A model generated the notes under the pieces. That model was given only the letters and a program-made list of their open reading frames with translations. It was not told where the DNA came from and ran no database searches. The translations under genes and the position numbers were made by a program. This document shows positions 3,286 to 33,810 of a DNA stretch of 33,810 bases, piece by piece (the first letter of the stretch is position 1; the number at the start of each line of letters is the position of its first letter). This DNA is from a virus. The stretch covers positions 1 to 33,810 of IMG/VR virus record IMGVR_UViG_3300036761_000410. One strand, given 5' to 3'.

Positions 3286-5799
3286 TTAACGCCCTCCTGA
3301 AGTTCTACCGCCCAATGGACTTCCTCTATATAAACCAGGCCCTTTTACTGGATATACAGTAGTTCGTTTTCGTACTGGTCTACCTTGTTTGTCTAATATG
3401 TTTCTTTCGGTAGTTTCTTTAGTAGGATAACTCCAAATAGAAAGTCTGTGAACAATGTTACTCGCAACATCGGCGAAGTCATCGTGCCTTACGGGGCCAG
3501 AATCGGGATGTTTAAAATAAGTATACTTACCAGATATTATTCTTTGTAAGTATTTCATTTCCAGTTTCCATCTATCTACCCAACCTTCGGTATCTTGACC
3601 ATACATTTTTACTTGACCGTGTTCGGCTTTAGAAAGGAAATCTCCATACATCTGACCTTTGTAAGGATTAGTAAAAGTAGTCTCGATAGCCGGTAATCCT
3701 ATAGCTTGAAGAGAAGATACAGCTTGTTGGTTTTGCCATTGATCATAACATATTTCTAATACAAAGTTTCTCCCTCCTAAGTCTTTTATTAACTCTATTA
3801 AATAGTTCAAAACTTCGTTGGGGTCCACAGGTATTGTTTCTATTTTCCCAAAACCTATATCTTTTGGAATAGCATCCCATCCTTTAAATCCATCTATCCA
3901 ATAAGTGGTATCTCTTTCGTCGGGTTTAACGTCAGCGTGCCCCCATCCTAAAGCGTAAGTATCGGCCACTTTAACTTTAGCCTTTCCCCCTGGATCTAAA
4001 CATATAACGAATCTCCAGTTACTTGGATTTCTAAGTATTATACCCCTTTCCGGTTGAGGAATACTATTTATAACGTTCTCAGATATAAAAGCCATAGAAG
4101 GATTAAGAAAATGAGCCCCATATTCAGCGTTGGCCCCCACTGAATCGCTCCTAAATTCAGATGCTAATGATTCTCTTGATATACTGGGTCTCGCGGCCCA
4201 AGTAGGTAATTGTAATAAAGCATAACCTACTTCCCTCTCCATAGTCTGCCCACCTTCTTGTTCGGAACCTCCAGCAATACCATAATGTCTATACATTTCC
4301 CCACCTTTTTCTGCAGGGGATGACTCCAATATAATCTTACCATCTTCTCCAAAGTCTTTAACAGCGGGTACTAAAGCTTTATAAATAGCATAATCACTCT
4401 GAGGGTTTTCTTCCGCTACCTGGTCTGCTGTTTTAGAAGGATCCATCCTAGCCCTTAAGAAGTGCGCAAACTCGGAAAGCATTAACATAAAAGTAGCATC
4501 GCCTCTATTAGTAGCTGCGGATGTAGTAATAGATTTCGCATATAACGAACCGGGCCTCTTCGGCTTTTTAAGTTCTCCTCTTGGAAGTAATATATTCATC
4601 TGTTTAATCTGATCGTTAAGGTATTTATCGTAAGGAGTAAAAAGTCGGAGTTCTGTAAGACTATCTTTATCAAAATCTAAGTAAGGGTCAAAGAAAGGAA
4701 CTTTTCTCAGATTATCTTTAGTTAGTATAAAAACGCTTTCTGCCTGTTTTCCTTTAGCAGCCACGTGAGTTACATAAATAGGATGCCTTTCTCTTATTCC
4801 ATAATATTTTTGGGGATTACCTCTACATATAAGGGTGTAAAGAGCATAAGTAGCAAAGAAAGATGCTAAAGTACTATTATGTACTACAATATTATTAGCT
4901 ATAAAATTATGAGTATCTGGCACGTTTAAATCGTAAGTTTGCTTCTTCCCAACGTACTCGATACTTTTAATAGGATCCCAAATTACATCAGCTTTAACTA
5001 AGTTCTTAAGATAGGTATCGTCTAAGTATTCACTAATCTTTTTCACTTTTCGTATATCCTGTTTCTTTAATCCTTTTCCGATTCTTATCTTATCTACATA
5101 ATTCCAAATTTCTTTCGGGATAGAAGTAATAAAAGCATTATCCATTTTAGCTGCGTTCTTCGTTATAACTTTATCAGTTACAAAGATAGGTAAAACAGAA
5201 GGTACAGCTATTCTATCTTTTTCTTTTAGATCTTTAAGTTCTTTCCATCCCTCAATTGTTAAAAAGGGTTCGTTATCAGTACACTCTAAGGTTCTCCCAG
5301 TCTTAGTTAATATTTTATAACAGGGTTTAATTCCATTATCAAGTACTCTGTAATCAGTAGTTTTAGTAAATTTAAAATCATTCTTTAATGTAAAAATCGG
5401 GGGATGTAAATTATATTCATATAAATCTCCTAACTTATAAATCTTCCCCATATTAGCATCTATTATTTCGGAATCTCCCGTTAAGCATTTAGTACTCCTT
5501 CGACCTAAAACCATTATAAAATGAGTAACAGGGTCTTCTCTATCTAATTCTACTTTTATATTCCAATCTCTGTAGAGAATTCTTATTAGTTCTTCTTCCT
5601 CTAAGATAGGGGGATATATACCCCAAAGATTGTAAAGAGTTTTAATAGCTAAACTTTGAAAGGGGGTAGGATCTTCGTTTAAATAATCGGAAGAGGTTAT
5701 AAATGTAAAAGCATCTAACGGTTCTATTTCCTCATAAGAAGATATGGAACTATCTATAAGATCGTTAGCATAATCAGAGAAACTTATAATTTTAGACAA
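3286..5799 (-). CDS. terL: terminase large subunit (packaging ATPase/nuclease) with intein
   Basis: The DNA-packaging motor: an N-terminal ATPase and a C-terminal RNase H-fold nuclease that cuts the concatemer. The precursor has 837 residues; removing the 204-residue intein leaves 633, normal for TerL. The Walker A loop is GRRSTK (99-104) joined after splicing to ST (309-310). Walker B is FMLMLSE (437-443), with Ser-Glu where Asp-Glu is common. The coupling motif is ESSPAEKG (492-499). Nuclease acidic residues are probably D602 (ICLDPGG), D686 (ICYDQWQ) and the HDDFAD cluster (772-777). The start is TTG, supported by GAGGG just upstream; an in-frame stop precedes it and the next Met is deep in the ATPase. 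A small LSWQ-tagged gene and a candidate small subunit lie immediately upstream. Confidence 0.93.
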   Translation of the reverse strand: MSKIISFSDYANDLIDSSISSYEEIEPLDAFTFITSSDYLNEDPTPFQSLAIKTLYNLWGIYPPILEEEELIRILYRDWNIKVELDREDPVTHFIMVLGRRSTKCLTGDSEIIDANMGKIYKLGDLYEYNLHPPIFTLKNDFKFTKTTDYRVLDNGIKPCYKILTKTGRTLECTDNEPFLTIEGWKELKDLKEKDRIAVPSVLPIFVTDKVITKNAAKMDNAFITSIPKEIWNYVDKIRIGKGLKKQDIRKVKKISEYLDDTYLKNLVKADVIWDPIKSIEYVGKKQTYDLNVPDTHNFIANNIVVHNSTLASFFATYALYTLICRGNPQKYYGIRERHPIYVTHVAAKGKQAESVFILTKDNLRKVPFFDPYLDFDKDSLTELRLFTPYDKYLNDQIKQMNILLPRGELKKPKRPGSLYAKSITTSAATNRGDATFMLMLSEFAHFLRARMDPSKTADQVAEENPQSDYAIYKALVPAVKDFGEDGKIILESSPAEKGGEMYRHYGIAGGSEQEGGQTMEREVGYALLQLPTWAARPSISRESLASEFRSDSVGANAEYGAHFLNPSMAFISENVINSIPQPERGIILRNPSNWRFVICLDPGGKAKVKVADTYALGWGHADVKPDERDTTYWIDGFKGWDAIPKDIGFGKIETIPVDPNEVLNYLIELIKDLGGRNFVLEICYDQWQNQQAVSSLQAIGLPAIETTFTNPYKGQMYGDFLSKAEHGQVKMYGQDTEGWVDRWKLEMKYLQRIISGKYTYFKHPDSGPVRHDDFADVASNIVHRLSIWSYPTKETTERNILDKQGRPVRKRTTVYPVKGPGLYRGSPLGGRTSGGR
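4876..5487 (-). other. mini-intein inserted in the TerL Walker A loop
   Basis: Residues C105-N308 of the TerL precursor form an intein. It starts with CLTGDSEIID (block A, Cys nucleophile), has a block B-like GRTLECTDNEPFLTIEGW, and ends in the classic TYDLNVPDTHNFIANNIVVHN, with Ser as the first residue of the C-extein. It sits directly after the P-loop Lys, a typical intein niche. The stretch between blocks B and F is only about 70 residues and shows no LAGLIDADG or HNH motif, so the homing endonuclease has been lost. In block B the normally conserved His of TxxH is Glu here (TDNE, codon 5269-5271), which may slow or alter the first splicing step. The penultimate His and terminal Asn are intact. 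Confidence 0.93.
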
Positions 5800-5814: not shown

Positions 5815-6186
5815 TTATTTAACCCTCATAAAAGGTCCGTGGGGTTCGAAAACGCAAGCTGTAATAAGAATATAGGTTTTATAACCTATAAATACAAAAT
5901 ATAGTTGTATTAACCTATAAGCATGGTGGTCGTCATCGGATAAAGAGTAATCCACTTGAGGTAACCATAGCGCCCTTGTAATATCTATATGGGTCATCCA
6001 AAGAGGATACGTATTAGATTCTATAGTAGTATGTAAATAATGCCCCGCGAGTCCCGGACCATTCTTGGCTTCCCAAATTTGATTGGGGCCTACCTCTTTT
6101 AGAAAATCGCCCCAAGTAAGCAGTTGTACTTGCCAAGATAAAATCTTCAACCCTCTACTCTTAGTATCGGTATATCTAGTCTCCAT
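5815..6186 (-). CDS. LSWQ-tagged small protein, 123 aa, paralogous to a module at 11.5-12.0 kb
   Basis: Near its N-terminus is GLKILSWQVQ, the peptide tag shared with several proteins of this window. The following domain contains VGPNQIWEAKN and ends with a GPF-type strand (EPHGPFMRVK). The first module of the 498-residue protein at 10476-11969 has the same arrangement (LGWQVQ, then LAPHQIWKDAR, then LDAGPFELL), so the two are probably paralogues of one about 110-residue beta-rich domain. The gene overlaps the end of the candidate terS by 11 bases and is followed by terL after 15 bases, so it is co-translated with the packaging genes. Function unknown; it may be a virion cargo or structural protein rather than part of the terminase. 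Confidence 0.72.
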   Translation of the reverse strand: METRYTDTKSRGLKILSWQVQLLTWGDFLKEVGPNQIWEAKNGPGLAGHYLHTTIESNTYPLWMTHIDITRALWLPQVDYSLSDDDHHAYRLIQLYFVFIGYKTYILITACVFEPHGPFMRVK

Positions 6187-7003: not shown

Positions 7004-7013
7004 TCATTCATTC
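6994..7013. repeat. (ATTC)5 tetranucleotide microsatellite at a gene junction
   Basis: Five exact ATTC units (GAAT on the coding strand) span the stop of the upstream gene and the start of the candidate terS. They create ATGs at 7011, 7007, 7003 and 6999, of which only 7003 opens the long frame. One upstream ATG overlaps the TGA stop as ATGA. Slippage here would change start spacing or fuse or shift the frames. Confidence 0.8.
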
Positions 7014-9200
7014 TCCAGTAACATATTCTTGATAAGGAGAAAAGGGAATAAGGAAATGATATCCAGATTCGTTCCTCCGCCAATTATTAGACGGTGATAT
7101 TATAGTATTAGTATTAAACTGTTTTAATATATTTAGTAATTCTTGGCATCTTGCTTCTTTAGTCGGCCCTCTTAAATTTTCGGATCTACCTTCTATATTC
7201 CAAGGAGTATCAATAGAAATTTCTATTTCATTAGTTCGAGTAAAAAGTCTAACTTCATACTGAGGAAATTTCTCTTTAATAGCATCCTTAACTTCTTTTA
7301 CTGGAAGCAATTGTCTATCTCTTTTTATAGATACGAAAATAACTAGAAACTTTTTGGCTTTTTCACTTACGCGGGGGCCTAAATATTGAAAATAAGGACT
7401 GGTAATGGGGAATTGTACTTCCGTATCGGGGGCTTCTTGTTCTAGTCTATCTTTCAAAAGCTGTACGGTTTCCGGAGGTATATTTTCCCATCTATTATTA
7501 GGTCTATAACCTACAAACGCTTTTCTTTGGCGGCGTCCTATATAAAGGTTTAAAGCAGTTAAACCTACTTCATTTATTATTTCCCTTAAGCGTTGCTTAC
7601 TCATATTCTTAGTCATAGCCCAAGATTCTTTTTCTAAACTAGAAGTAACTTCATCTGGATATTCTTGTATTTTTATTGGTGTTATAAAGGTAAAGTAACC
7701 TGGTAAGTTGGTTTCATAGGCTTTAAAATTAGGATTGAATTGTCTTAATATAGTAGTAATTTCACGAACCATTTCCCTTCTATGAGTAGGATGAAGGTCG
7801 GCTATTCCCCAAACATCCACTCTTATTTCGGTGGTTCCTGTTTTAACATTTATTCTATCAAACCCTAAAGCTTTTAATTGTTTTTTAACTTCCCTCCAAG
7901 GCAAGTTAGGGGTATCTCTATAAACAGGGACTTTTACTATTATACTTTTTCCTTTATACCTTGATTGCTCTATTCTCCCTTCCGGAGTAAGAGCCGACAG
8001 TTCACTTTTTAATTTCTCAATCATTTCCCCAGGGATATTTTCCCATTTATCATTTACTAAGTAACCAGCGTCTACTCTTCTAGTTCGTTTGCCCATGTAG
8101 AAATTAATAGGAGTTAAACCTACCGAAGTTATCAAGTCTCTTATTTCGCCTTTAGAGAGAGTTCTTCTAATAACCCAGGATTCCTTTTGTATAGTCTTTT
8201 CGTTTATCCAATTATCTATTTCATCTCCGGATAATTGCCAATCTCTATTAGAGGGCCATTTGGAAGTATAATCATCCTTAAATGCCCATCTCCATTTTTT
8301 AGCAAATTCAGCATCATTAGTATGATCGTAAAGGATGGCGAGTGCGAGTTGAGAGGGTCCAGAACCACCGTAACCCCAAGCGAATCCAGTAGGAGAATGA
8401 TTTTCTATAGCGAGAGAAGTAACGTGAGAAAAAGGTTTACCATCCTTAGTAACTATATAATCGAAACCAGGTCCTTCTCTATATTTACCTTCATAGATAT
8501 TAAAGGTCTGCCAGGAGAGTTTAAGAGAAGAAGTAGTTACTTCTTTAATAACTTTTATTTTATCAAAATCGGTAAGGGGCACGGGCCAAAAAGAAGGTAA
8601 TCTAGATTCGACTAGCTTCTGAGGGTGTTCGTAATAATATAAAGCGTCTTCAGCAGAACCCGCCCAAAACCCCCAGAGTAAAATTGTATCCTTATGTTTG
8701 GGGTCGTCGGATGTTACCACACTAGTTATTACGCCATATTCATTAGGGTAGTAACTGTGAGGAAAGGGACTACCATAATGTATTAAATATCCGACCAAAT
8801 CCTCGAAGGAGGAAGGCTCTTGTACTTGCCAACTTAATTTGGAGGAGGATTCTTTTATTCCTAATCTTCGAGCATTATACAGTAAAAAGTCCTTAGAATC
8901 TTCGTCGGTGGTAGGCCATAAGTCATTTAAAGCTTGTGCTATCTCCTCTATAGTTAAATTATCTTTATTCTCATTTATGTAAGCATTAAAAATACTATGA
9001 GAACTTGGTGTTATATGCCCGTTATCTATTATAAAGAAAATATATTTTTGGTAGGCTTCTGATTTCACTCGAGCATCGTCCACCCAGTATTGAGTCTGTT
9101 TTTCATAATTAGAATCGCTCCATGATTTATCCTTAAGAATTTCTTTAGAGTCCGGAAGTATCTCAACTTTCCAACTTAGTTTTAAGTCCGGTTCGTTCAT
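7008..9200 (-). CDS. modular protein with five LSW-type tags and a tandem duplication
   Basis: 730 residues from ATG 9200, which overlaps the upstream TGA as ATGA (a TTG at 9212 is the outer alternative). Tags split it into modules: KLSWK at residues 7-11; KLSWQVQ at 121-127; KLSWQ at 227-231; KESW at 339-342; KESW at 524-527. The tag is usually preceded by a Ser-rich link (ESSS, TTSSL, TSSLE). The third module contains SPTGFAWGYGGSGPSQLALA, a pattern I associate with the DUF6166 family. Modules 4 and 5, about 185-210 residues each, are paralogues: both have GLTxxNxYxGxRxR near the start, WENIP next, and ILxQFN near the end. The protein looks like several small proteins fused end to end, each keeping its N-terminal tag. 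Function unknown. Confidence 0.8.
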   Translation of the reverse strand: MNEPDLKLSWKVEILPDSKEILKDKSWSDSNYEKQTQYWVDDARVKSEAYQKYIFFIIDNGHITPSSHSIFNAYINENKDNLTIEEIAQALNDLWPTTDEDSKDFLLYNARRLGIKESSSKLSWQVQEPSSFEDLVGYLIHYGSPFPHSYYPNEYGVITSVVTSDDPKHKDTILLWGFWAGSAEDALYYYEHPQKLVESRLPSFWPVPLTDFDKIKVIKEVTTSSLKLSWQTFNIYEGKYREGPGFDYIVTKDGKPFSHVTSLAIENHSPTGFAWGYGGSGPSQLALAILYDHTNDAEFAKKWRWAFKDDYTSKWPSNRDWQLSGDEIDNWINEKTIQKESWVIRRTLSKGEIRDLITSVGLTPINFYMGKRTRRVDAGYLVNDKWENIPGEMIEKLKSELSALTPEGRIEQSRYKGKSIIVKVPVYRDTPNLPWREVKKQLKALGFDRINVKTGTTEIRVDVWGIADLHPTHRREMVREITTILRQFNPNFKAYETNLPGYFTFITPIKIQEYPDEVTSSLEKESWAMTKNMSKQRLREIINEVGLTALNLYIGRRQRKAFVGYRPNNRWENIPPETVQLLKDRLEQEAPDTEVQFPITSPYFQYLGPRVSEKAKKFLVIFVSIKRDRQLLPVKEVKDAIKEKFPQYEVRLFTRTNEIEISIDTPWNIEGRSENLRGPTKEARCQELLNILKQFNTNTIISPSNNWRRNESGYHFLIPFSPYQEYVTGE

Positions 9201-10475: not shown

Positions 10476-11969
10476 TTATTCCCCTTCTATTATCTGTAAC
10501 CATTCTTCTTTGTCAGCAAATGTTAAGGATGCTTCTTTAGATTCTACTATCTCTAAAAATTCCTGCCAATAATGATAAGGAATCCACCAACCAGCCCCCA
10601 TTGAGTTTTCTCTTATGTTTACCCACATGTTATCACTATAAATACCCATCATTCCAACCTCGCCAGTATCTATAGATGCTACCTCATAAATAGTATTTGG
10701 ATCGAATTCGTCAGTATTCCGAGCGTAAAAAACAATATCCAAATCTCTTAATTTTTTAAGAAATGCTATTATCTTTACTTTATCCCCTACTTTTAAAACT
10801 GGTTCTTGTATTTGCCATGATAGTTTGAATATTCCTTGTCCAACTACTTCTAAAGAAAGTCTAGCGTCTTTAAAGTAAGTATGATTGGGGGAAGAAGTTT
10901 CGAATATATCTTCGTGGGAATCCCCTTCCTCTGGCAGTTTCTTTACCTTCTTAACACCACTTGTTAAACCTCTTATAACAGTCTTAGGAGGGTCTATAGT
11001 CATAAATTCGTTGGGAGATTGTATATTTCCTTCATAGTGGGCGAATCCTACGTTTAAGTCCAAAAGCATTACGGTAGGGTCATCTTCTGAAGGAATATCT
11101 TTTTTCTCGTTTCTTATTTTATATTTTGTTAAATAAACTTGTTTACCCTTATCTAGTCCTTCTACTTTACTTAAAGGTCCTACAAAAGTAACCTTACCAA
11201 ATCTTTTAGATAGCGGGTCAAATACTAAAGCACCAATATCATATTTACCACCATAAGTCGAATCTTGCCATGATAGTTTAGAGGATTCTTTATCAGGAAG
11301 GTTATAACTATCTACTATCTCCTTAAAAGCCTTTTTAACCTTCAACCAGTCGGGAATAAAGTTTAGTTCGTCGTTGGGATAATGTACTTTATAATATCTT
11401 TTAATTTCCTCTATTCTCATTACGTTAGAGAATTCATCGGTAGCCTCCCATGCTACTCCTTTTGCTCTTTTTACCATATCTTGAAACAAAAAAGCTTCTT
11501 CAGTAAACCCCGAATCGATCATATCTTTAGCTATATCATCTATAGTAGTATCGGAAGGTATGCATAATAAAGCTACTACATGATCATCGTCAGCGGTTAG
11601 TAAACTAGCCATAATACCTCTGTCCATAGGGTCTATATCTCCTAAGAATACTTGCCAAGAGAGTTTATTTATATCTTCTTCACTCAATAATTCAAAAGGG
11701 CCGGCATCTAGATAAAGATAAGCGAAACAACCAGGAGATACTCTACTGTGAAGAGAACTTGCCCATATGGCCTCTTGTATAACATACCGCGGTTCCCCGC
11801 CAGAATCCTTCTCTTTCCATACAACTTCAATTACATCACCTATCATAAAAAGATAAGAGTAGTCTCGAGCGTCCTTCCATATTTGGTGAGGAGCTAACAT
11901 CGTTATCATTTCTTCAACAGTATAACTATTCTGAACTTGCCAACCTAATATTTGTCTCCAGTTCTTCAT
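10476..11969 (-). CDS. modular protein with four LSWQ tags and SH3-like modules
   Basis: About 497 residues from ATG 11969, which overlaps the fibre-gene stop as TAATG; the start places MKNWRQILGWQVQ at the N-terminus, matching sister proteins. Further tags KLSWQVF (about residue 102), KLSWQDS (231) and KLSWQIQEP (382) divide it into four modules. Module 1 is paralogous to the 123-residue protein at 5815-6186. Module 3 (YDIGALVFDPLSKRFGKVT) and module 4 (VLKVGDKVKIIAFLKKL) look like small SH3/KOW-type beta barrels. The C-terminus carries KEASLTFADKEEW, close to the ASLKF tags of the protein at 30294-33810. Function unknown; the architecture suggests fused cargo or structural modules. Confidence 0.8.
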   Translation of the reverse strand: MKNWRQILGWQVQNSYTVEEMITMLAPHQIWKDARDYSYLFMIGDVIEVVWKEKDSGGEPRYVIQEAIWASSLHSRVSPGCFAYLYLDAGPFELLSEEDINKLSWQVFLGDIDPMDRGIMASLLTADDDHVVALLCIPSDTTIDDIAKDMIDSGFTEEAFLFQDMVKRAKGVAWEATDEFSNVMRIEEIKRYYKVHYPNDELNFIPDWLKVKKAFKEIVDSYNLPDKESSKLSWQDSTYGGKYDIGALVFDPLSKRFGKVTFVGPLSKVEGLDKGKQVYLTKYKIRNEKKDIPSEDDPTVMLLDLNVGFAHYEGNIQSPNEFMTIDPPKTVIRGLTSGVKKVKKLPEEGDSHEDIFETSSPNHTYFKDARLSLEVVGQGIFKLSWQIQEPVLKVGDKVKIIAFLKKLRDLDIVFYARNTDEFDPNTIYEVASIDTGEVGMMGIYSDNMWVNIRENSMGAGWWIPYHYWQEFLEIVESKEASLTFADKEEWLQIIEGE

Positions 11970-14900
11970 TACTTTTCGTAAGCTCCAATATCCCAAGAAC
12001 CTGTTCTAGTCTTTCCTGTAATATCTTTTGTATATTCTACGCCCTCACCAGTTAAATCTACTCCTTTATCAATAGCGGCGGAACCTACCTTTAATGTTAA
12101 ATCCCAAGTAGCTATATTTGTAAATATAGTTGAGTTTGATATATTCCATCTATCAGAACCAATACCTATACTTTCAGCGAATCTTGGAGAGGCTCTTAAT
12201 TGAGTCATGGTATAACTACTAATCAAATTATTAGTACTTCCATCGGAATATTCCGCATATAAGTTACCATCTATATAATTCCAAGTCGGGGAAGTTGTTC
12301 TAAAATGAACTCGGGGGTTAGTACCAGAATCACACGGGTACATAGAATAAATAATATTATTCTTAAGACGAGTCTGTGGGGTATTTATAGCGCCGTCTAT
12401 CTGAACTACGTAAGGATTAGAACCCCCTATAAAGGTATTATTGAAAATGTAACAAGTTGGAGAATTACTGGACCCTCCCATATTTAAAGTAGAGGGCCAA
12501 GCCTGACCATTTATTCTAAAATAAGGTGAAGCTATTATATTTGCATAAATTTTAAAAAATCCATCAACACTACAAATAAGAACTTGGGATCTCCCGTTGT
12601 TCGCCTGCCAGTTAAATAATCTATTAAATGCTATAGTAACGTTCTTGCAAATATTGTCGGTTGCAAAGCAATCATTATGAGCTTGTGTATCGAAAACATT
12701 ATAATCATTCATAACAGCAACATCGTTTCCTATAATAAATATATTTTGCGCATACTGTGCTATAATAGCGTCCTTTTGAATGTCCTGCGGAGTTATCATC
12801 CAATTTCTATAAAATCCATATCTTACAAAAACAGAATCGAGTCTAGTTGTACCGGGGCCGGGGTAACCATCTATACGCATTAACCAAGTTGTGAAATTTT
12901 TATCATAACAAGTAACAGTACAACTATCTATATATATAACATTAAGTCCTTCTGAAGTATTGTTACCTCTTATATAAATACCTTGATTAGTTCCATTTTG
13001 CATTCTAACTGTTATTTTCTCGAGTTTAAGATACTTTCTATCTTGAATAGTAATATTAGTACCAGAAGTACTTCCTGCTATTACAACCTTACCGTAGTGC
13101 CCGGGTGTTTTTCCAGCTCTCACAACTACTAAAGCATTAGCATTTCCGCTCGTTTGAATATCCATATTAGTATTATATACTAAAGAATCATAGCCTACCC
13201 CACCATCTACCCAAACAGTATCACCAGCTGTAACTTGACTCCATATACTAGAACTAGAAACAGTAGTTTGAGCTTTCTGCCAAGTATCATATGGAGATGT
13301 ATTACTTCCGTTAGGAGAAATAAAATGTCCATGTTCGACATAAAGAGGAGCATATTCGTAATCTCCCATATCCCAAGAACCAGTTCTGATATAGTCTACT
13401 CTATCCTTTGCGTAATCGGAGCCTAAAGTATTAAGTCCTATATTTATACAAGGGGAACCTGCCTGTAGTCTATCATCAAAATGAGCTATATTAGCATAAT
13501 TAGGATTAGCAAGTAATGGATTTGTATTTATTCCATTAGTCTCGGCTCCTGCAGTTTTCATTTGAGCTAAATTTTTAGTGCCTCCGTAATTACAAATAGA
13601 AGTATTACCAGTAGTGTAATAATAACAATTATAGTTTATATTAGCCGCTGTTATACTAGAACTAAATTCATAAGCAGAACTACTTGCCTTTGAATAAAAA
13701 ATATTATTCTTAATTTCTGATGCAGGATTTATAGTACCTGCATAAGTAGCAATCTGTAAAGCATTATTGGAAGTATTGGTTACAACAGTATTATTATAAA
13801 AATATAAAAGGAAGTTAGTTCCTGTAGTAAAGAATCCTATACCAGCATTAGAGTCAAATCTCGGTTCTGCAAGAAAATTATCATAAATCTTTATAGTCCC
13901 TACTAATTCAGACATAATAACGCCATTATCAGCGTTACTGGGATACCCCGTCTTCTGGGAGTAATTTATCATATGATTTCTCGCTATAGTAACGTTCGTT
14001 ATTGACTGCCCGCTTACAGAAGCATAACCCATTATGCAATCAACATGAGATGCATTTTGATTGTTTACATAGATATTATTATTTAGAGCGAAGAAATTAG
14101 TCATGAATGAAAAAGCTATACCATCGGTTTCGGTAGAGGTTACTCTATCATTACGTATATCGCACCATCTTACAAGTACAGAATCTACATTGGAAGTAGC
14201 TGGGTATCCTGATATTTCTATTCCTTGAGTATAGGAATTTCTTACTTTTATACTATCGAGATAAATTACATTTACAAGAGAAGAACCATTTTCGTCAATT
14301 AATATACCACCGCGATAAGTATTGATTCTTTGTACTTTCATATACTTACATCCGTGGAGAATAAAATTCTTATTAGTAGCATCTTGTCCATCAAACCATA
14401 CTTCTCCATTATGCCCAGGAGATATACCCTTAGTAATCACAATTGGTAAAGCTGCGGTCCCTGTTTTATTATCGATTTGTACGACGCCAGTATAATTAGT
14501 CGAATCGGCTCCACCATCAACCCAAATAGTGTCACCGATATTTAAATATGGCCAAAGGGGGCTACTAGCAGTCCAGTTGGTACAAGCTTTAGCCCAGGTA
14601 TTATAAGGAACTGTATTAGAACCATTTTTGGAAATAAAATGCCCTCCTTCCACATAAAGAGGAGGAGTAGCAGATCTAGTAGTAATAGAATAAGTATCAC
14701 TTATACCCCCCACTGTTAAAGTAGCATCTACTGTAGTTAAGTAAGAACTAGAAGAAGTATTTTGAATACGTACGGTATTATTATTATAAACTTTTCTTCT
14801 AGTAGCGCTGAAACTTCCAGAATTTACTTGAAATAATTTACCCGCTGCGTATGCGTAAGCACTATCAAAATTGGTTAAAGTTATAGTATTAGAAGTATAA

Positions 14901-15976
14901 AGGGTAGATAGTTCAGCTCCAGTAATATCATTAAATGCAAAAGTCGCGGGGACAGTATCGGGAGCAGTCGATGTTGTAATAGAATAAATTCCTCCCACGC
15001 CACCTACGGTTAGAGTAGCTGTAACGGTAGTTGAATAAGAACCTGAAGAAGTATTTCTAATGTATACTACATCATTACCATGAACTCTTCTTATAGTAGA
15101 ACTAAAACTACCAGAATTTACTTTAAATTCTTTACCAGTAGCATAAGCATAAGCACTATCGAGACTAGTTAAAGTTACGCCATTAGAAGTGTAAAGAGTA
15201 GATAAAGCAGCATTAGTAACAGGAGTAAATACAAAACTAGCCGGTATTGTATCTGGTGGGGCCTTAGTAGTAATAGAATAAACATCAGTTACCCCCCCTA
15301 TGTTTAAGGTAGCATTAACTATAGTTGAATAAGAACTTGAAGAAGTATTTCTAATGTATACAATATCGTTACGATGAACTCTTCTTATAGTAGAACTAAA
15401 ACTACCGGAGTTTACTTTAAATTCTTTACCAGCTGCATAGGCGTAGGAGCTATCAAAAGCATTTAAGGTTATACCATTTGAGGAATACAAAGTGGATAGT
15501 TCCGCATTAAGTTGATCTGCGAATTGAAAATCGGCAGGTATGGTATCTATAATAGAAGCCTTAGTAGTAATAGAATAAACATCGCTAACTCCTCCAACAG
15601 TTAGCGTAGCATTCACGGTAGTTAAATAAGAACCGGAAGATGTATTTCTAATGTATACTACGTCATCGCGGTGAACCCTCTTATAAGAACTTCCCCAACT
15701 TCCTAAGTTTACTCTAAATTCCTTTCCACCTCCGTAAGCGTAAGCACTATCAAAATTGGTTAAAGTTACTCCATTGGAAGTATAAAGAGTAGATAGTTCA
15801 GCTCCAGTAATATCATTAAATACAAAAGTACTGGGAAGAGAATCTACTTGAGAGGGCCCACTTATTTTATTACCTATAATAATTTTATGAACCTGGGGGA
15901 AAGTTCCCCCAGTTATCATAAAAGATATTACTATATATAATAATGTTCTTAAAAAAGCATTTACTTTTCTATACAT
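11969..15976 (-). CDS. giant fibre/adhesin: signal peptide, four beta repeats, two beta-helix domains
   Basis: 1335 residues. The N-terminus (TLLYIVISFMITGGTFPQ) is a hydrophobic, signal-peptide-like segment. Residues about 45-433 are four repeats of about 95 residues, each with LSTLYxSN, a DSAYAYAxGK segment and VYIRNTSS. Two right-handed beta-helix domains follow (about 438-870 and 875-1335), each beginning LYVExGHFIS and containing GDTxWVDGG and a PGHxGxV segment. The first helix ends in WDMGDYEY and the protein ends in WDIGAYEK. Beta-helices of this kind bind or cleave polysaccharide in phage tailspikes and bacterial adhesins; I see no clear catalytic set. It is last in a run of four fibre-like genes. 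A receptor-binding fibre or a surface adhesin are both possible. Confidence 0.82.
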   Translation of the reverse strand: MYRKVNAFLRTLLYIVISFMITGGTFPQVHKIIIGNKISGPSQVDSLPSTFVFNDITGAELSTLYTSNGVTLTNFDSAYAYGGGKEFRVNLGSWGSSYKRVHRDDVVYIRNTSSGSYLTTVNATLTVGGVSDVYSITTKASIIDTIPADFQFADQLNAELSTLYSSNGITLNAFDSSYAYAAGKEFKVNSGSFSSTIRRVHRNDIVYIRNTSSSSYSTIVNATLNIGGVTDVYSITTKAPPDTIPASFVFTPVTNAALSTLYTSNGVTLTSLDSAYAYATGKEFKVNSGSFSSTIRRVHGNDVVYIRNTSSGSYSTTVTATLTVGGVGGIYSITTSTAPDTVPATFAFNDITGAELSTLYTSNTITLTNFDSAYAYAAGKLFQVNSGSFSATRRKVYNNNTVRIQNTSSSSYLTTVDATLTVGGISDTYSITTRSATPPLYVEGGHFISKNGSNTVPYNTWAKACTNWTASSPLWPYLNIGDTIWVDGGADSTNYTGVVQIDNKTGTAALPIVITKGISPGHNGEVWFDGQDATNKNFILHGCKYMKVQRINTYRGGILIDENGSSLVNVIYLDSIKVRNSYTQGIEISGYPATSNVDSVLVRWCDIRNDRVTSTETDGIAFSFMTNFFALNNNIYVNNQNASHVDCIMGYASVSGQSITNVTIARNHMINYSQKTGYPSNADNGVIMSELVGTIKIYDNFLAEPRFDSNAGIGFFTTGTNFLLYFYNNTVVTNTSNNALQIATYAGTINPASEIKNNIFYSKASSSAYEFSSSITAANINYNCYYYTTGNTSICNYGGTKNLAQMKTAGAETNGINTNPLLANPNYANIAHFDDRLQAGSPCINIGLNTLGSDYAKDRVDYIRTGSWDMGDYEYAPLYVEHGHFISPNGSNTSPYDTWQKAQTTVSSSSIWSQVTAGDTVWVDGGVGYDSLVYNTNMDIQTSGNANALVVVRAGKTPGHYGKVVIAGSTSGTNITIQDRKYLKLEKITVRMQNGTNQGIYIRGNNTSEGLNVIYIDSCTVTCYDKNFTTWLMRIDGYPGPGTTRLDSVFVRYGFYRNWMITPQDIQKDAIIAQYAQNIFIIGNDVAVMNDYNVFDTQAHNDCFATDNICKNVTIAFNRLFNWQANNGRSQVLICSVDGFFKIYANIIASPYFRINGQAWPSTLNMGGSSNSPTCYIFNNTFIGGSNPYVVQIDGAINTPQTRLKNNIIYSMYPCDSGTNPRVHFRTTSPTWNYIDGNLYAEYSDGSTNNLISSYTMTQLRASPRFAESIGIGSDRWNISNSTIFTNIATWDLTLKVGSAAIDKGVDLTGEGVEYTKDITGKTRTGSWDIGAYEK
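14678..15844 (-). repeat. four tandem ~95-residue repeats in the fibre gene
   Basis: Coding repeats at protein residues about 45-138, 144-238, 242-335 and 340-433. The shared skeleton is D(S/T)(L/I/V)P, AxLSTLY, YAYAxGKxFxVN, VYIRNTSS and SITT. Units 2 and 3 are the most alike (EFKVNSGSFSSTIRRVH in both), which suggests stepwise duplication. They probably form a stalk of Ig-like or similar beta modules that lengthens the fibre. Confidence 0.85.
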
Positions 15977-15994
15977 AATTAAACCTTATCTTGT

Positions 15995-18559: not shown

Positions 18560-18592
18560 TCTTTTTTCTCCTTTATATTTAAATATTATGAA

Positions 18593-18611
18593 GTGTATTC
18601 GTAGAATACAC
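18593..18611 (-). promoter_or_regulatory. perfect 8-bp inverted repeat in a fibre intergenic gap
   Basis: GTGTATTC-GTA-GAATACAC in the 66-base gap between two fibre genes. It lies 52 bases before the downstream ATG (18559), the same distance as the CGTGTATATTATA motif from its gene at 1920, and begins on the minus strand with the same CGTGTAT. It could be a promoter or operator variant, or an RNA hairpin that separates the two reading units. No U-run follows the stem. Confidence 0.4.
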
Positions 18612-18625
18612 GTTCTCTATTAATT

Positions 18626-21600
18626 CTAAAAGCCCGTAAAGTCTCCCATTAATCCAGCACTAATTATAATATCATCGAAGTATATAAAGGAATTACTATC
18701 GCTGATTCTGAGACTACCGTTAAGCTCTGGTAACCCCCAGAGAACTTTCTTCGGATAAATTCCTGTAGTAGCGTGAGTTTGTCTATTAAATATAAGAGTA
18801 GCATCACACCAGATCTTTATACCTCCATTAGGAGAGGTTTGATGCCCAAAATATTGCCATTTTATTCTATGCCAAGCTCCCGTAAGACTACTCCCCCAGT
18901 TATAGGAAAACTCAGCAAAAACATCGGAACTATCCATTTGTTCTAATAAAAATCGGGTAAAGTTATTACTACCATCGGTTTTTAATCCTAAAAATATTTG
19001 CCAATCAGAGGGATAAGGCCCGTCATAAAGTCCGAATATTTCTATATCAGAGTAATTAGTTGGTACAGAAGTGTTTATAGAATTATCGGCGTAGAAGTAA
19101 AAGTATCCCGAAATAGTATCTTGTCCGGTTCCTGTTGAAAAGGTTTTTTCAATAGCAGTAGTATCTATTCTTGTCTGACTGAGAGTATCTAAATGAAGTT
19201 TCATACCGTAATTACCATTGTGTTTGTAAGCAAGTCCCGTAGATATATCATGATTACCCACATAAGCCCCTGCGAAATAAGCAAAAGCTCTATTAAACTC
19301 ACTCCAGTTATTTTCTTCAAAGTCGGCTAATAATAGTGACCTTGGATATCCAGAAGGTGGAGTAGTTACTCCAGTACCACTTACAGAAACATTCTTAGTA
19401 GTAGCTCCAGAACTAGTATGACTAATATTACCAGAATAAGGAACGGAATTAACGGGACTAAATCTTGCATAAATTGTAGTACCCGGTAAAGTAGGTCCTG
19501 TAGGAGGTAATACTAATTGTGTACCATACCCGCTTCCACTACTTAAAGATATCTGGAATCCAGTAGGAACGTCTATAGTAACGTTACCTAATAAATCTGT
19601 TCCGGATACTGTATAACTTTGAGGAGAGGAATTAGTACCTGTTTCTACATTACCAAAATCAGTAAGAGATGCTACTGAAGTGTAAATATTAGGAGTACTT
19701 GCCCCCATGTATTCATAAGCGCCTATATCAGGAGTATTTGGGTCTCTTGCATTGCCAAGTAAATCAGTATCAATACCCAAATCTAAACCTACTCCAATGG
19801 CAGGTGCTCCAGTCTTTAAGGTATAATCATAGTTAGTAACATCTGAAAATAAATTAGAATTCACTACATTCCATCTATTCGCGGGTGTATTAGCTAACTC
19901 GGCGAATCTCGGAGAAGCGTTCAAATTAGCCATAGTTAAATAACCATCAGCTGTTACCATCAATTGATTACTGCTACCAGCCCAGTATTGTCCATATATA
20001 TTATCATTTATGTTAGCCCATATAGGATTTAATCCAGTGGAACTTAAATACTGTCTAAATCGTATCTTAGGAGCGGCCGAGCCTTGCCCTACGGCGGTGA
20101 AGATGTTATTCTTTAATCTTACGTGATATACGACAGAAGTATCTTGAAAATCAGCCCCATAAAAATTAGAGCCGGCTACAATAGTATTATGATACAGAGA
20201 GTATTCACAAGACGCAGACCCTGGATATATTACAAAAGTAGTAGGCATCCAATTACCATCATTAACAAAATTAGGAGTAGCAAATACATTATTATAAATA
20301 AGCATATAACCACTACCGTTACCTAAGATAGCACCTTGAGATTGATGATTCGCAGTTTGAAGATTTATCATATAGTTGTTAGCTATAGTAAGATTTTTAG
20401 TAATAGCATTACTTGCTATACAATCATTGTGTGCATTATTACCGGTAGGATAAGCGGCTGTAGGCCAGTCGTTATTTATAGTTACGTGGTTATTCAGTAT
20501 CCATATATTCTGAGCGTATTGTAACACGATGCCGTCGGCTTGCACCCAAGTCGCTGGATATCTCGTATTTGCAAGGGTACTATACATAAGGTAAACAGAA
20601 TCTACGTAAGTACTTACTCCCCCGCCAGAACCATCTATTTTAACTAAAAAGTTATCAGTATCCGCTCCTCCGTATCTATCTCCGGAAGCACAAGTAACGG
20701 TCAAACTATCTAGATAAATCCCTTTAGTAGCTCCTACGCTATTACCCCTTACTAAAAGAGCATATCCTTCAGAAACATTAACGGGGGCAAAGTTAATAGT
20801 TATATGCTCGAGTCTTATATATTTCTGATCTTCTATTTTAACAAAACCTTTATTAGAAACAGAGGTGCCGTAGAAAATTACTTCACCGTTGTGCCCGAAA
20901 CTTATGCCAGGTCTTATAGTAATTATATGTCCTGGAGTTCCGCTCCTACCTATATTCACTAAACCAGTATAAGTAATAGAACTATTTACGTTACCTCCGG
21001 AAATATATAAAGTATCGCCGGGTACTATAGCATTCCATGTAACATCCTGCATAGTCTTCCAAGCCTTATCCCAACTAGTCCCATCGTAAGTATTAGTACC
21101 CCCGCCAGTCGCGTAAGCATTCACAAAGTGCCCGTAAGGACCTTCGACTGCTCCCCCCGCGGTTGGAAAGCCTACAAAGTTTTCTGTCATTATACCATCA
21201 CAAACTATAGCATCATCAAGATAAAAATAACCAGCTGCCGCCCAAACCATACTATAACCTTCAACGGCGCCGTAGTGAATAAGATCGGGAAAGAAACCAG
21301 TAGTTACTATCCCCATCTTCTGCAAAACTAAATTATTATTAACATATACTTTAACCCCGCCGTTAGAACCTTGATTTCCAAAGTATTGCCATGTTACTTT
21401 ATACCAAGCCCCCGTAGTAGGATTATTAGTATTCTCAGCAGTAGTAGCAGTATCTAAAGAGGAACCAGCTGCCATATATAAAGCCCATCGAGATACTAAG
21501 TGAGAAGCATCCCATTTAATTCCTATGTAACATAAATCATTTCCCCCGTCATATAAACCAAGAATAAAAAGATCACAAAAACTTACATCGGTTTGAGCAG

Positions 21601-22459: not shown

Positions 22460-22473
22460 ATTACTTTCCTTAT

Positions 22474-26313: not shown

Positions 26314-26661
26314 TTAATATTCCTCTACAGGGTAATCTTGTACTAGTTTAGTATAGAATTCGACTAATTCACCATATAGCTTCATTTTATGCTGATATGC
26401 TGTTATATAAGATTCCTTATAATTCTGTAATGTCCCGAGAATGCGCACTCTATCGTGAAATACGTTAGGTTCAAAAAGGTAATTAATAGCTCCTTCTGTA
26501 GCATATGCCAAAGCCCGTTGCAATTCTTCACCTTTTTCTCTACTGAAAGGAATCTCATGTTCTTCCCAAGTCTTAGTCTTATACTCTTCTTTTTGGTTTT
26601 TACGAATCTCTTCTTCGTTCAACCAACCGAATTTTAATATTTGTCTCCAGTTAGTCGGCAA
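26314..26661 (-). CDS. NWR-tagged small helical protein, 115 aa
   Basis: Begins MPTNWRQILKFGWLNEEEI, a degenerate form of the NWRxxLSWQ tag (NWRQIL intact, LSWQ changed to KFGW). The rest is charged and helical (REKGEELQRALAYATEGAIN, AYQHKMKLYGELVEFYTKLV), with no cysteines or membrane helix. The ATG overlaps the stop of the preceding tagged gene by 11 bases, so the two are translated together, directly upstream of the fibre genes. Function unknown. Confidence 0.7.
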   Translation of the reverse strand: MPTNWRQILKFGWLNEEEIRKNQKEEYKTKTWEEHEIPFSREKGEELQRALAYATEGAINYLFEPNVFHDRVRILGTLQNYKESYITAYQHKMKLYGELVEFYTKLVQDYPVEEY

Positions 26662-26923
26662 AAATATCCTCGCGCGTTAAATGTCTTATGTAGGCTCCTA
26701 AATATAATTTAATGTATTTAGTAACAACATTTTCATCTATATTATCAATTTGGTCTCCGAGAGAAGGATCTATTTGATTTTGAACTTTATCGGGAATAAT
26801 AATAGCCAAATCATCAATAATTTCTTGAGAAGCCTTCATAGCTATCATCTTATTAATATTCCGAGAGGATTCTTCGGGTTGTATCTGCCAACTCAGTATT
26901 TCACGCCAGTTCTTCTTTTCCAT
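26651..26923 (-). CDS. NWR-LSWQ-tagged small protein, 90 aa
   Basis: MEKKNWREILSWQIQPEESS at the N-terminus is a full copy of the tag. The remaining residues are mostly helical and acidic (IIDDLAIIIPDKVQNQIDPS, NVVTKYIKLYLGAYIRHL). I start it at ATG 26923 to match the short leaders of sister proteins; a GTG at 26932 (three codons earlier) is the alternative. Its first codons overlap the end of a 56-residue zinc-ribbon gene in another frame. Function unknown. Confidence 0.68.
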   Translation of the reverse strand: MEKKNWREILSWQIQPEESSRNINKMIAMKASQEIIDDLAIIIPDKVQNQIDPSLGDQIDNIDENVVTKYIKLYLGAYIRHLTREDIFAD

Positions 26924-27071
26924 CTCTCTCACGTGTCAATAGATAGTTAATAAACACCTTAGGTAAGCGAAGGATGCTCATACATTTTGGGCATCCCTGA
27001 ATCTCCTCAGTAGTATGAAAAGCTAAATATTTCCCGCACTTACAGCGGAAATAAAAATTTACTAGTTTCAT
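26901..27071 (-). CDS. 56-residue zinc-ribbon miniprotein
   Basis: Found by reading the gap. ATG 27071 lies 5 bases after the stop of the preceding large gene and has GGAGGT 9 bases upstream, one of the strongest ribosome binding sites in the window. The protein begins MKLVNFYFRCKCGKYLAFHT and carries a second pair in GCPKCMSIL, giving a C-x-C ... C-x2-C zinc ribbon, then a hydrophobic and basic tail. The reading frame overlaps the start of the next, tagged gene by 23 bases. Such ribbons often bind nucleic acid or a protein partner; the specific role is unknown. Confidence 0.72.
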   Translation of the reverse strand: MKLVNFYFRCKCGKYLAFHTTEEIQGCPKCMSILRLPKVFINYLLTRERDGKEELA

Positions 27072-29722: not shown

Positions 29723-29940
29723 TTTTCTTTTACTTTTGTCAATACTCTATTTTGAATTAAATTTTTCAAATCCGAAATAGCGTCAGCTACCTTATAAATC
29801 TCCAATTTAAGTTCTACTTTCATAACATCAATTTCGCTTTCATATCTTAAAATACAAAGATAGAATCCAATCAGCGCCCCCCCGAAAAAGGTTATAGTTG
29901 GATATAGCCATTTACTATTTTCTGTAAACCAATTTTTCAC
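29719..29940 (-). CDS. small membrane protein with cytoplasmic-type helix, 73 aa
   Basis: Begins MKNWFTENSKWLYP, followed by one transmembrane helix (TITFFGGALIGFYLCILRY) and an amphipathic charged helix (DVMKVELKLEIYKVADAISD) that may be a coiled coil. The start overlaps the previous stop by four bases (ATGA) and the stop overlaps the next miniprotein in the same way, so three genes are translated as a chain. The layout fits a membrane-tethered accessory such as a lysis or DNA-entry component; this is only a suggestion. Confidence 0.66.
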   Translation of the reverse strand: MKNWFTENSKWLYPTITFFGGALIGFYLCILRYESEIDVMKVELKLEIYKVADAISDLKNLIQNRVLTKVKEK

Positions 29941-30290
29941 GCGTTTGGAAAATTTAATATTCTAAATGTATATCTTGCATAAGAGAAACCTTCGGTATTT
30001 ATATAATAATAAAAATCATCTGCTTGATTATGTAATATAAATTCAGATGTTCTTCCGGAGATATCATAAAGTGGTGTAATAGTACTATAGGGAGTTGCTA
30101 CATATCCTTCTATTACACGCTTTCCCAAAAGAGCCTGTTGATGTAAAGTATCGAATTGATGAAAATCATAAGTCCCTACTTCCGCCCAGCTACTTGGTTT
30201 TCTCATTGATATATCTCTAAATAAAGCTCTAGTATCTTTAGGAGCTTCGGGTTGTACTTGCCAACTTAATACTTTTCGCCAATTACTCAT
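29937..30290 (-). CDS. NWR-LSWQ-tagged small protein, 117 aa
   Basis: The N-terminus MSNWRKVLSWQVQPEAPKD is the clearest copy of the tag. After a short Pro-rich link, a mixed alpha/beta domain follows (PSSWAEVGTYDFHQFDTLHQ, KRVIEGYVATPYSTITPLYD, ADDFYYYINTEGFSYARYTF). The SYARY and FHQF-type segments give no recognised family. The ATG is 3 bases after the stop of the very large upstream gene. It is coupled at its end to a small membrane protein. Its position between two large proteins fits a virion-associated role. Confidence 0.7.
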   Translation of the reverse strand: MSNWRKVLSWQVQPEAPKDTRALFRDISMRKPSSWAEVGTYDFHQFDTLHQQALLGKRVIEGYVATPYSTITPLYDISGRTSEFILHNQADDFYYYINTEGFSYARYTFRILNFPNA

Positions 30291-30293
30291 AAC

Positions 30294-33200
30294 TTAAAAA
30301 CTTACTGGTACTTGTTGATTCTTAAACTGATTCGGTTCCTCGTTTGCTCCCGGTCCACCTGGAGTACCTGGTGTTCCTTGATTATTCTGTGGAGTAGTAT
30401 TTAACGTAGGAAGCTGAGGGCTTTGCATTTGAGTCTTCATTGCATCATCAAGAGCTTCCTTTTGAGGGGAATCCATAAACTTCACTGTAACCTCTTTTGT
30501 AGCTGGATTAATAGTAGTTTGGAATTGAGGTCCTGTATCACTAGAACTATCATAAATTACATTCTTCTTTTCTTCTTGTTCTTTATCCTTATCCTGTAAT
30601 CCCTGCATAGGTTCCTTGGGTGCTCCTGCCCCAGCTGGTTTTCCAGGAGTACTAGCATCCCATCCCATTGGAGGTATTTCATCGCTAACATCAATAGCGT
30701 ATTTTATAAAAGCCTTATTTATATCCTTTTTAGTAAATGTTTTGCCAGAAGCTTTTTCTCTTTGATAACGCATTTCCATAGTTTCTGTGTTGGGACCATA
30801 TACCTTAGCCCAACGCTCTGGAGTTATTTCTGGAGATCTATCTCTATTATAAGCATAATTCAAAAAGGTTAAATCACTTACTATATCGTCGGGTGTCTGC
30901 ATTCCTCTATTTGTAGGTATGAATCCTTCTGAGGGTTTTCTACTCCAATCTTCTTCCCCTTTATCAGACCACTCTTTTTCGGCTAAATCATCTGCTTCAT
31001 CGCCTGCTTTCTTCTTCATAAGAGTCTCTACCATATTAGCAGTGCTACCTAACGAAACATCAACGTATTTGATCACTTTTACTGTTTCACCTGTATCAGG
31101 CCTATTTAATTGACTGTTTATACGGAGTTCTCTATAATTAGGTAGCACCACAAACTGGTTCTTTTCATTGATGTAACCATATTTATTTATCTTTCCATCT
31201 ATTAGTTCTCTTATAATTTCAACTCCTTGCAACCCACTCTTTGATATTACTTTAAAAGAAGACTTCATATTACCATAGAAATTATTACCAGTTGCGCGGT
31301 TGGCGTAATCTATAATCTCTTGTAATTGGGCTCTTACCTCTCCTATACTATCTGGAACTACATAACCTTGATCCTTATAAAACCATTCCATTGGGAAGTC
31401 GGCTGGGGTACTCTCTCGTCCTAATACTTGCATATGCTCTACTACTTTACTAAGAGCTTGCTTAGCATTGGAGCGAAGTAATCTTAATTCTGGAGGTATC
31501 TTACTCATCGCGAACTTATCTTCAAAGAGGTCTGGTAATATATTAAGGGCTACTCCTGAAGCTTGTTTACTTCCAACGGTACCAGTCATAAAACCACTTC
31601 CATCAGGTAATTCATAGGCAGCCCCATCCTTAGTTTCGGGTTCGTCCTCTATTACTACATCTGCGAACTTCTCTTTCATCCAATCTTTGAACTGTTTATG
31701 TTGAGCAGCTGTTTTAATAAAATTAGAATAACCTTCCCAATAGGAAGTTTCATTTTTATTTTTGTTAAACCATAAGGTAAAATTTGTTTCTTTAGACATA
31801 TCTGTGTCTCTCCTTTCTCTTGCTCTATCTCTTAGTTTGAGTACTTTATCAAATTCATTTTCTGGTTCTTTTAATCCTTCCTGCTCGAGTAATTCCTCTT
31901 TATCTAACCATTGTTCTTCGTTGGTATCCGTAAAGTAAACAATGTAACCACCATTATCTTCTCGAACTATACGGCCTTCCCTACCATGATAACCTATCTG
32001 CTCACCGGGCTTATATATGTAAGATGCTTTTTTCTTGTAACGCCAGTGTTCTGGAAACCTCTCTTTATGACAATTATCGCATAACTCTAAATCACTACTA
32101 AAACCTCCTATTTGAAGTTTTTGGCCGAAGGTGTTATATAATTTAGCTCCTGGTGCTCCACAGTCTTCACACTCGTGCTCTTCTCCAGAATTGAATCTAT
32201 AATTATCATTATAAAAATCATAATCTTCTTCTGTTTGTGAGAATTTTAAGGAAGCTTTTTTGCTACCAAATTGTTCTCTATTGAATGTATCTTCTTCACC
32301 ACGTTGATCCCAATCCTCATTGGTCATCTTTCTTGGACCTACTTCATCTTTCCAATTCTGATAGGCTTCATATATTGCTTCATCTGGTAACTCAATATAT
32401 TCTTGCCATTCTGGTTTAACATCAGTTGCAAATTGAGCTGCAATCTCTTCATCTACACCCATTTCCTCTAATACTCTTTTAACTCTTATTGTTGTATGTA
32501 TCTCATCAGCAGAGGCAGTTACTTCACTTGTAGTTCTTAAAGTAGGGAGTCCTTGAGGAGAAGATGCGTTCCACCATTTCGCAAATATGTTTTTATAAAC
32601 TGCTTTATGTTCCATGGTAGGTATTTGAAATATATCATCAAAAGTATGTCCTAAAGATTTCAAATAATTAAACTGTGTCTTATAAGCTCTTTCCTCTATA
32701 GGGTTATCAGGATAATTTCCTGAATTATTTTGTTGACCAGCTGCTGCTAATGTTGCATGTACCTTTTCATGTACCATCCACCCAGCAGGATCATTATTAA
32801 CATCATAATCCCCCCTAACTCTTATAGTATCAGTAGTAATATCGTATTCTGTAGGATCTATTTTACCTCTTTGCCAGCTAGTAACAGGTATAACTTGTAC
32901 ATTTACAGCATACTTGTTTATATTTAAAGATGCTTCTCTTTCATACATCTGCTTAAACTCTTTAGCACGTTTTTTAGCATATTCCCGCAATATGCTCTTA
33001 GCCATCTGTTTATCTTCCGGTGGAAGATTAAGTAAGTAATCCCCTAAAGTATCTATTTCGACAGCCTGCCCCCACGAGTAATTCCATAATATGTCCTCGC
33101 TCGAATCGGCTCCATAAGAAGCCCAATATTTTATAGAACGATCTAAATATTTTTTGATCAGCCTTCGTATATCTTCTTCGTGGCCGCGTTGTTTCCAAGC

Positions 33201-33810
33201 TTGTTTAATATAACCTAATGACTTCTTATTAAAATTTCTTTGCCATTGCTTATAATAAGCTTCTGCATCCTCATAGGTTACCCCTTCTCCTTCATCATCT
33301 GCAACATCAAATATGTAACTGATTAAGTCATCTACATCAGGTACAACGTGTGCTCTGGAGAAGTGTTCATCAGCTTCTTTTAATACTTTGTCAGTCCACT
33401 CAAAAGAACCAACATTTGAAGTATTCTCATCATCATCTGTATGGTATGCATCATACATGCCAGGTATGTCTTCTGTATATTCCCCTGGTGCGAAATCTTC
33501 ATATGCAAACTTCAATGATGCACCTGCTGGTGTTAATCCTGGACCTGGTGTAGGAAGCTGTGGTCCTTGTGCTTGCGGCTTCTGCTGTGGTTGCCCCTGT
33601 GGGGGTCCTTGCGGTGCCTCTTCCTTCGGTGCTTCAGCTTTCGGTTCTTGAGCTGGTTGACTTGTACCGGCTTGTTCTTGATAAAACTTTAAGCCCTGAT
33701 CTACATTGGTAAACTCTATAGTTACTTTAGCAGTACCTTGTCCGCCTGTCTCATCCATTGTAATATTCTTGGATTTGATACCGGGAGCAATGGGTATATC
33801 CTGTGGTTTA
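30294..33810 (-). CDS. partial giant multidomain protein with HExxH metalloprotease and zinc ribbon
   Basis: The frame is open to the window edge: the 17 codons before the ATG at 33758 read as plausible protein (DIPIAPGIKSKNIT) without a good Shine-Dalgarno sequence, so the true N-terminus probably lies outside. Numbering from that Met: a Pro/Gln-rich linker (32-78); a domain beginning at ASLKFAYED (80); a protease-like segment with WMVHEKVHATLAAAG (HExxH at 330-334) and a downstream EERAY (355-359) that could give the third zinc ligand; ASLKFSQTEED (502); a zinc ribbon C530/C533/C560/C563; an SH3/KOW-like segment (KPGEQIGYHGREGRIV); a helical region; and a Pro/Gly/Gln-rich tail. Module borders carry KKAS, REAS or KQAS. 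It looks like a concatenation of virion or injected domains. Confidence 0.75.
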   Translation of the reverse strand, partial: KPQDIPIAPGIKSKNITMDETGGQGTAKVTIEFTNVDQGLKFYQEQAGTSQPAQEPKAEAPKEEAPQGPPQGQPQQKPQAQGPQLPTPGPGLTPAGASLKFAYEDFAPGEYTEDIPGMYDAYHTDDDENTSNVGSFEWTDKVLKEADEHFSRAHVVPDVDDLISYIFDVADDEGEGVTYEDAEAYYKQWQRNFNKKSLGYIKQAWKQRGHEEDIRRLIKKYLDRSIKYWASYGADSSEDILWNYSWGQAVEIDTLGDYLLNLPPEDKQMAKSILREYAKKRAKEFKQMYEREASLNINKYAVNVQVIPVTSWQRGKIDPTEYDITTDTIRVRGDYDVNNDPAGWMVHEKVHATLAAAGQQNNSGNYPDNPIEERAYKTQFNYLKSLGHTFDDIFQIPTMEHKAVYKNIFAKWWNASSPQGLPTLRTTSEVTASADEIHTTIRVKRVLEEMGVDEEIAAQFATDVKPEWQEYIELPDEAIYEAYQNWKDEVGPRKMTNEDWDQRGEEDTFNREQFGSKKASLKFSQTEEDYDFYNDNYRFNSGEEHECEDCGAPGAKLYNTFGQKLQIGGFSSDLELCDNCHKERFPEHWRYKKKASYIYKPGEQIGYHGREGRIVREDNGGYIVYFTDTNEEQWLDKEELLEQEGLKEPENEFDKVLKLRDRARERRDTDMSKETNFTLWFNKNKNETSYWEGYSNFIKTAAQHKQFKDWMKEKFADVVIEDEPETKDGAAYELPDGSGFMTGTVGSKQASGVALNILPDLFEDKFAMSKIPPELRLLRSNAKQALSKVVEHMQVLGRESTPADFPMEWFYKDQGYVVPDSIGEVRAQLQEIIDYANRATGNNFYGNMKSSFKVISKSGLQGVEIIRELIDGKINKYGYINEKNQFVVLPNYRELRINSQLNRPDTGETVKVIKYVDVSLGSTANMVETLMKKKAGDEADDLAEKEWSDKGEEDWSRKPSEGFIPTNRGMQTPDDIVSDLTFLNYAYNRDRSPEITPERWAKVYGPNTETMEMRYQREKASGKTFTKKDINKAFIKYAIDVSDEIPPMGWDASTPGKPAGAGAPKEPMQGLQDKDKEQEEKKNVIYDSSSDTGPQFQTTINPATKEVTVKFMDSPQKEALDDAMKTQMQSPQLPTLNTTPQNNQGTPGTPGGPGANEEPNQFKNQQVPVSF

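Follow-up and report, generated by a model that had tools for sequence, protein, structure and literature searches.

The internal proteins of the T-even phages are diverse and have only the capsid targeting sequence in common (PMC3012670); for IPIII, the first 10 residues are enough for targeting (PMC9026906), and in phage P1 the first 30 residues of DarB package a reporter (PMC9024508). Here, we analyzed 33.8 kb (33,810 nt) from an uncultured tailed phage. The sequence is an IMG/VR record, a genome fragment with genes mostly on the minus strand, and is referred to as the window. As in the T4 case, a short N-terminal peptide is common in it to otherwise unrelated proteins, and it also recurs within a single protein of five modules (Table 1). 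The ATG of this gene overlaps the upstream gene as ATGA, and an alternative TTG at 9212 is also open, which would make the protein four residues longer.

Counted from the ATG, the peptide was found exactly where the first-pass annotation had placed it, as KLSW at residues 7, 121 and 227 and as KESW at residues 339 and 524. It is to be noted that the copy at residue 7 is N-terminal and not internal. In composition-preserving shuffles of the protein, KLSW occurred at a mean of 0.011 against the three observed, and K[LE]SW at a mean of 0.020 against five; none of the 20,000 shuffles reached the respective count. The Ser/Thr-rich link that was said to precede each copy is real as a tendency, Ser and Thr making up 20 of the 55 residues in the five positions ahead of 11 internal tags from two viruses (p = 5e-5), but it does not extend to residue 339, which is preceded by INEKTIQ. 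Among the four module types of the protein, DUF6166 (PF19663) was the sole domain recognized, module 3 scoring 86.6 bits, above the curated cut-off of 27, and no solved structure resembling the protein by sequence was found.

Table 1. Coordinates of the tagged proteins, tag copies, modules and other genes of the window.
Feature	Position	Strand	Size or residues	Remarks
Five-module protein	7008..9200	minus	730 aa	counted from ATG 9200
Tag 1, KLSWK	9168..9182	minus	7-11	N-terminal; 16.3 bits (cross-trained profile)
Tag 2, KLSWQ	8826..8840	minus	121-125	preceded by ESSS; 13.4 bits
Tag 3, KLSWQ	8508..8522	minus	227-231	preceded by TTSSL; 15.6 bits
Tag 4, KESW	8175..8186	minus	339-342	by position only; 8.1 bits, within shuffle range
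Tag 5, KESW	7620..7631	minus	524-527	by position only; 10.5 bits, within shuffle range
Module 2	8535..8852	minus		relative: C-terminal tagged module of L017:13919-14728 (E 2e-9)
Module 3	8199..8534	minus		DUF6166 domain, PF19663, E 1.2e-24
Module 4	7644..8198	minus		duplicate of module 5 (E 6e-28)
Module 5	7011..7643	minus		duplicate of module 4 (E 6e-28)
Second multi-tag protein	10476..11996	minus	506 aa	N-terminal NWRQILGWQ; KLSWQ at residues 111, 240, 391
Free-standing tagged protein	5815..6186	minus		KILSWQVQ near N-terminus; 21.5 bits
Free-standing tagged protein	26651..26932	minus		NWREILSWQIQPE; 19.6 bits
Free-standing protein, variant tag	26314..26661	minus		NWRQILKFGW
Free-standing tagged protein	29937..30290	minus		MSNWRKVLSWQVQPE; 19.4 bits
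Terminase large subunit	3286-5799			interrupted by short intein
Polyvalent-like multidomain protein	30294..33809	minus		partial, off contig end; HEKVH (HExxH) at 32771-32757

The tag core recurs in five other proteins of the window, in one of them as a variant, and the assertion that the same peptide forms the N-terminus of free-standing proteins was borne out by the four such proteins of Table 1. A near-identical virus (51 kb) shows the same tag set. In a distinct lineage, the 27-kb virus IMGVR_UViG_3300031669_000201 (L017), the tag is N-terminal in seven cases and internal in three. The separate tagged genes there begin with MxNWRK[IV][FL]SW and the internal modules are headed by KLSW; a profile trained only on this virus recovers the KLSW tags of the window. 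The tag is thus a property of the phage and not of gene 7008-9200 alone, with the consensus (NWRK)[IV][LF]SW[QK][VI]Q and a Glu often at the fourth or fifth position after the Trp (W+4/+5). As only two virus lineages carry it, both of them partial contigs, few independent evolutionary events are represented. A pattern scan of genome contigs returned four matches, none with the tag in reading frame, which were regarded as chance, as were the matches beyond the two lineages in scans of viral contigs; tblastn of the tagged proteins against named phages gave no convincing match. Within the window, fibre gene 22474-26298 has a C-terminal FSWQIW, probably a chance likeness as well.

Several other features of the window were recorded. 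A terminase 64% identical to that of the window (L058) carries a much longer insertion at the place corresponding to the intein. The region 11969-26298 encodes fibre or lyase-like proteins of 854-1335 amino acids, several with apparent signal peptides ending in SLFGQ, AIYSQ or MVYAQ, which is unusual for phage virion proteins. The polyvalent-like protein at 30294-33809 contains SLKF-type junction motifs, and its modules are rearranged relative to those of a ~98% identical virus, G001, whose counterpart includes a SLKLSWQ-headed, DMP19-like module (a DNA-mimic family) that is missing from the window. Across this protein and that of L012:4364-9148, the recurrent junction motifs are ASLKF, ARLKF, GSLKLSWQ and ASLNI, possibly a looser form of the tag.

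The first-pass annotation had proposed that gene 7008-9200 looks like fused tagged proteins, and that its kind of module could occur in related phages as separate genes with their own tag. It was indeed found that, in the 27-kb virus, KLSW-headed internal domains also exist as free tagged genes. The C-terminal module of the 506-aa protein, a member of an SH3-like family, is related to the free-standing L017:8544-8849 (E 4e-6), and that of L017:5459-6067 to the free-standing L017:16168-16446 (E 5e-11); module 2 of the 730-aa protein matches the second module of L017:13919-14728, tag included. Moreover, LR756511, a huge phage matching module 3, has only an untagged DUF6166 gene, that begins just after the tag position. 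Because of these pairs of free and internal modules, the untagged DUF6166, and the position of the tag outside an SH3-like model (see below), the origin of the 730-aa gene as fused tagged proteins is supported.

The two KESW copies, originally read as decayed tags, are weaker than claimed, since neither rises above shuffled proteomes when scored with the profile trained on the 27-kb virus; we accept them as tags only by their position, since both lie at junctions of the duplicated module pair. The duplication of the modules at both copies, in contrast, was confirmed (Table 1). Decay of KLSW to KESW is plausible, and as the motif sits on two modules that are duplicates of each other, the pair would be explained more simply by one inherited change than by two separate decays. 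A comparable case is the internal repeat of L017:9674-11350, in which copies 1 and 2 carry KNAW and RLAW and only the last (third) has a full KLSW.

What, then, might the tag do? The reading that we consider best, to which we would give about an even chance, is that of a short linear recruitment tag that heads a folded domain and docks cargo to the particle, the fused proteins being derived from tagged genes. Recruitment to the particle is proposed because the distribution of the tag resembles that of the T4 and P1 signals, with one short peptide on many unrelated carriers. The tag would dock its cargo to a structure of the assembling phage, most probably the head core, and the cargo would then be carried in the virion; no capsid, core or prohead protease genes were recognized in the partial contigs examined. 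The 730-aa and 506-aa proteins would have arisen when neighboring genes for tagged cargo were fused and duplicated; each fused module would have retained its header, and some headers, such as KESW, would have drifted later. Cleavage after a Glu near the tag may release the modules, which is the least supported step of this scheme.

Such cleavage is central to an alternative, namely that the gene encodes a polyprotein which a phage protease cuts beside each tag, recognizing either the tag itself or the adjacent Glu and releasing modules about 105-210 residues long. Of 24 tags, 12 have a Glu at W+4/+5, compared to 53 of 388 other Trp (p 3e-6), and 6 of the 11 internal tags have an [IL]xE no more than 16 residues upstream, where 2.0 were expected (p 0.007); these statistics must be read in the light that both tests were framed, and the positions chosen, after inspection, and that some of the tags are paralogues. 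Prohead proteases of T4 and the giant phages cleave after Glu (PMC5694885), an HExxH-motif protein is encoded in the same window, and embedded peptidases have been proposed to free the domains of polyvalent proteins (PMC5512222). Given the Glu specificity of T4-type proteases, it is reasonable to propose cleavage near the tag, and cutting at the tags is no more than suggested by the Glu residues around them. However, tags 3-5 of the 730-aa protein are among the half of all tags that have no Glu at W+4/+5, and the protease was not among the genes recognized in the partial contigs. The free-standing proteins also start with the tag, where a bare cleavage site would be of little use unless the tag additionally targets. 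Overall, we regard the polyprotein as rather doubtful.

Alternatively, the tag may serve in loading or docking at the tail or baseplate, akin to the N-terminal effector signals by which contractile injection systems load their payloads (PMC11495950). The genes with a tag in the 27-kb relative are found among tail sheath, spike and baseplate genes, including baseplate J, a neighborhood that would suit tail or baseplate recruitment equally well; it is for this reason that such a role stays in consideration. On the other hand, the contractile-injection signals are disordered and 50-70 residues long (PMC11495950), compared to a core of about 8-15 in the tag, and in the window, the tagged genes have terminase and fibre genes nearby rather than those of the sheath. 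We consider a tail or baseplate address unlikely.

It was also considered that LSWQ is simply the ordinary first strand of each domain, recurring because the modules are distant paralogues. The L.W.V alternation of LSWQVQ would suit a strand, and several modules are truly paralogues. Nonetheless, the only structure prediction that could be used, the AlphaFold model of L017:16168-16446 (built with six relatives), shows the tag at low confidence and not as a strand: an SH3-like domain is predicted confidently from about residue 20, mostly at pLDDT 85-94, while residues 1-4 and 8-13 are below pLDDT 50. Foldseek matched this model best, although weakly, to L21e and NusG-type barrels. The tag thus lay outside the fold, and not in its core as the strand reading demands. 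The DUF6166 relatives lack the tag altogether, and the tag heads domains without detectable mutual similarity. In the full-length model of the 730-aa protein the tags are in coil; because the mean pLDDT of 42.8 is poor, this model was not used further. Taking the SH3-like model and the untagged DUF6166 relative together, the tag is predicted, where it could be examined, to be a header outside the domain, and the strand reading is very improbable. Lastly, that the repeat is a DNA element, such as a recombination or regulatory site translated by chance, is hardly credible, even though two near-identical viruses differ in the arrangement of the neighboring multidomain protein, since the tags vary in synonymous codons for Ser (AGT, TCT, TCA, TCC, AGC, TCG; i.e., AGT as well as TCN) and Leu (TTA, CTA, CTC, CTG) and it is therefore the peptide that is conserved, not the DNA.

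In the huge phage LR745208 (L027 / LR745208.1), which gave the best terminase match of the named phage records, a similar pattern was found, with peptides like MTTLRSKLIRLAHENPALRPQLLPLLKEA at 11 places and mostly at N-termini. This peptide is of ~29 residues, (M)TLRSKLIRLAH.NP.LR..LLPLLKEA, and in one case is clearly internal, a 588-aa frame having it at residue ~346. The pattern is the same as that of the window tag, but the peptide is longer and unrelated to LSWQ; by its recurrence, it apparently forms a family of N-terminal tags in its own right. The same test on 90 kb of LR756511 did not reveal any family of recurrent N-terminal peptides. One tagged protein of LR745208 had looked by eye like kin of the SH3-like family, but a profile of the SH3-like domain did not detect this protein, and we therefore do not claim that the two are related. 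A broader form of the recruitment reading, which we put forward only tentatively, is that one phage-specific tag serves as both virion address and module header, that cargo genes are joined into polyproteins with a tag between their parts, that the tag-headed units are shuffled and possibly cut apart while the particle assembles, and that different huge phages, LR745208 being an example, would have acquired tags of their own to the same end.

If the tag marks cargo, virion-borne unknown proteins of uncultured large phages would become predictable from sequence alone. Repeated internal tags, if true, would be a way to build multidomain cargo that is undescribed in the cited papers; internal tags were likewise not described in the literature on phage polyproteins and packaging signals, as represented mostly by papers outside subscription. 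That a second huge phage follows this pattern with a peptide unrelated to LSWQ points to a general strategy, which can be sought through recurring N-termini.

The tag can be compared with several known systems. The effector signal of the PVC contractile injection system is, like the tag, N-terminal and loads diverse cargo, but it is a disordered extension of 50-70 residues that works with an AAA ATPase, while the tag is about 8-15 residues with no extension of that kind, and no AAA ATPase like that of PVC loading was seen here. The polyvalent proteins described by Iyer et al. in 2017 (PMC5512222) share with the window the multidomain architecture, with an HExxH motif in the 30294-33809 protein and a DMP19-like domain in the counterpart from G001; the 730-aa protein differs in having DUF6166 as its sole recognized domain, and no repeated header peptide was found described in the accessible part of that paper. 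The T4 capsid targeting sequence of IPI-III and Alt is likewise a short N-terminal peptide on diverse small phage proteins, with a core of about 10 residues and a Glu nearby. No sequence identity is claimed, and internal copies heading fused modules are absent from the descriptions in the available text of the cited T4 papers. In P1 DarB, an N-terminal signal is carried by a large multidomain phage protein, as it is here; DarB, however, has one signal per protein, whereas the tag is found once per module and on separate genes as well.
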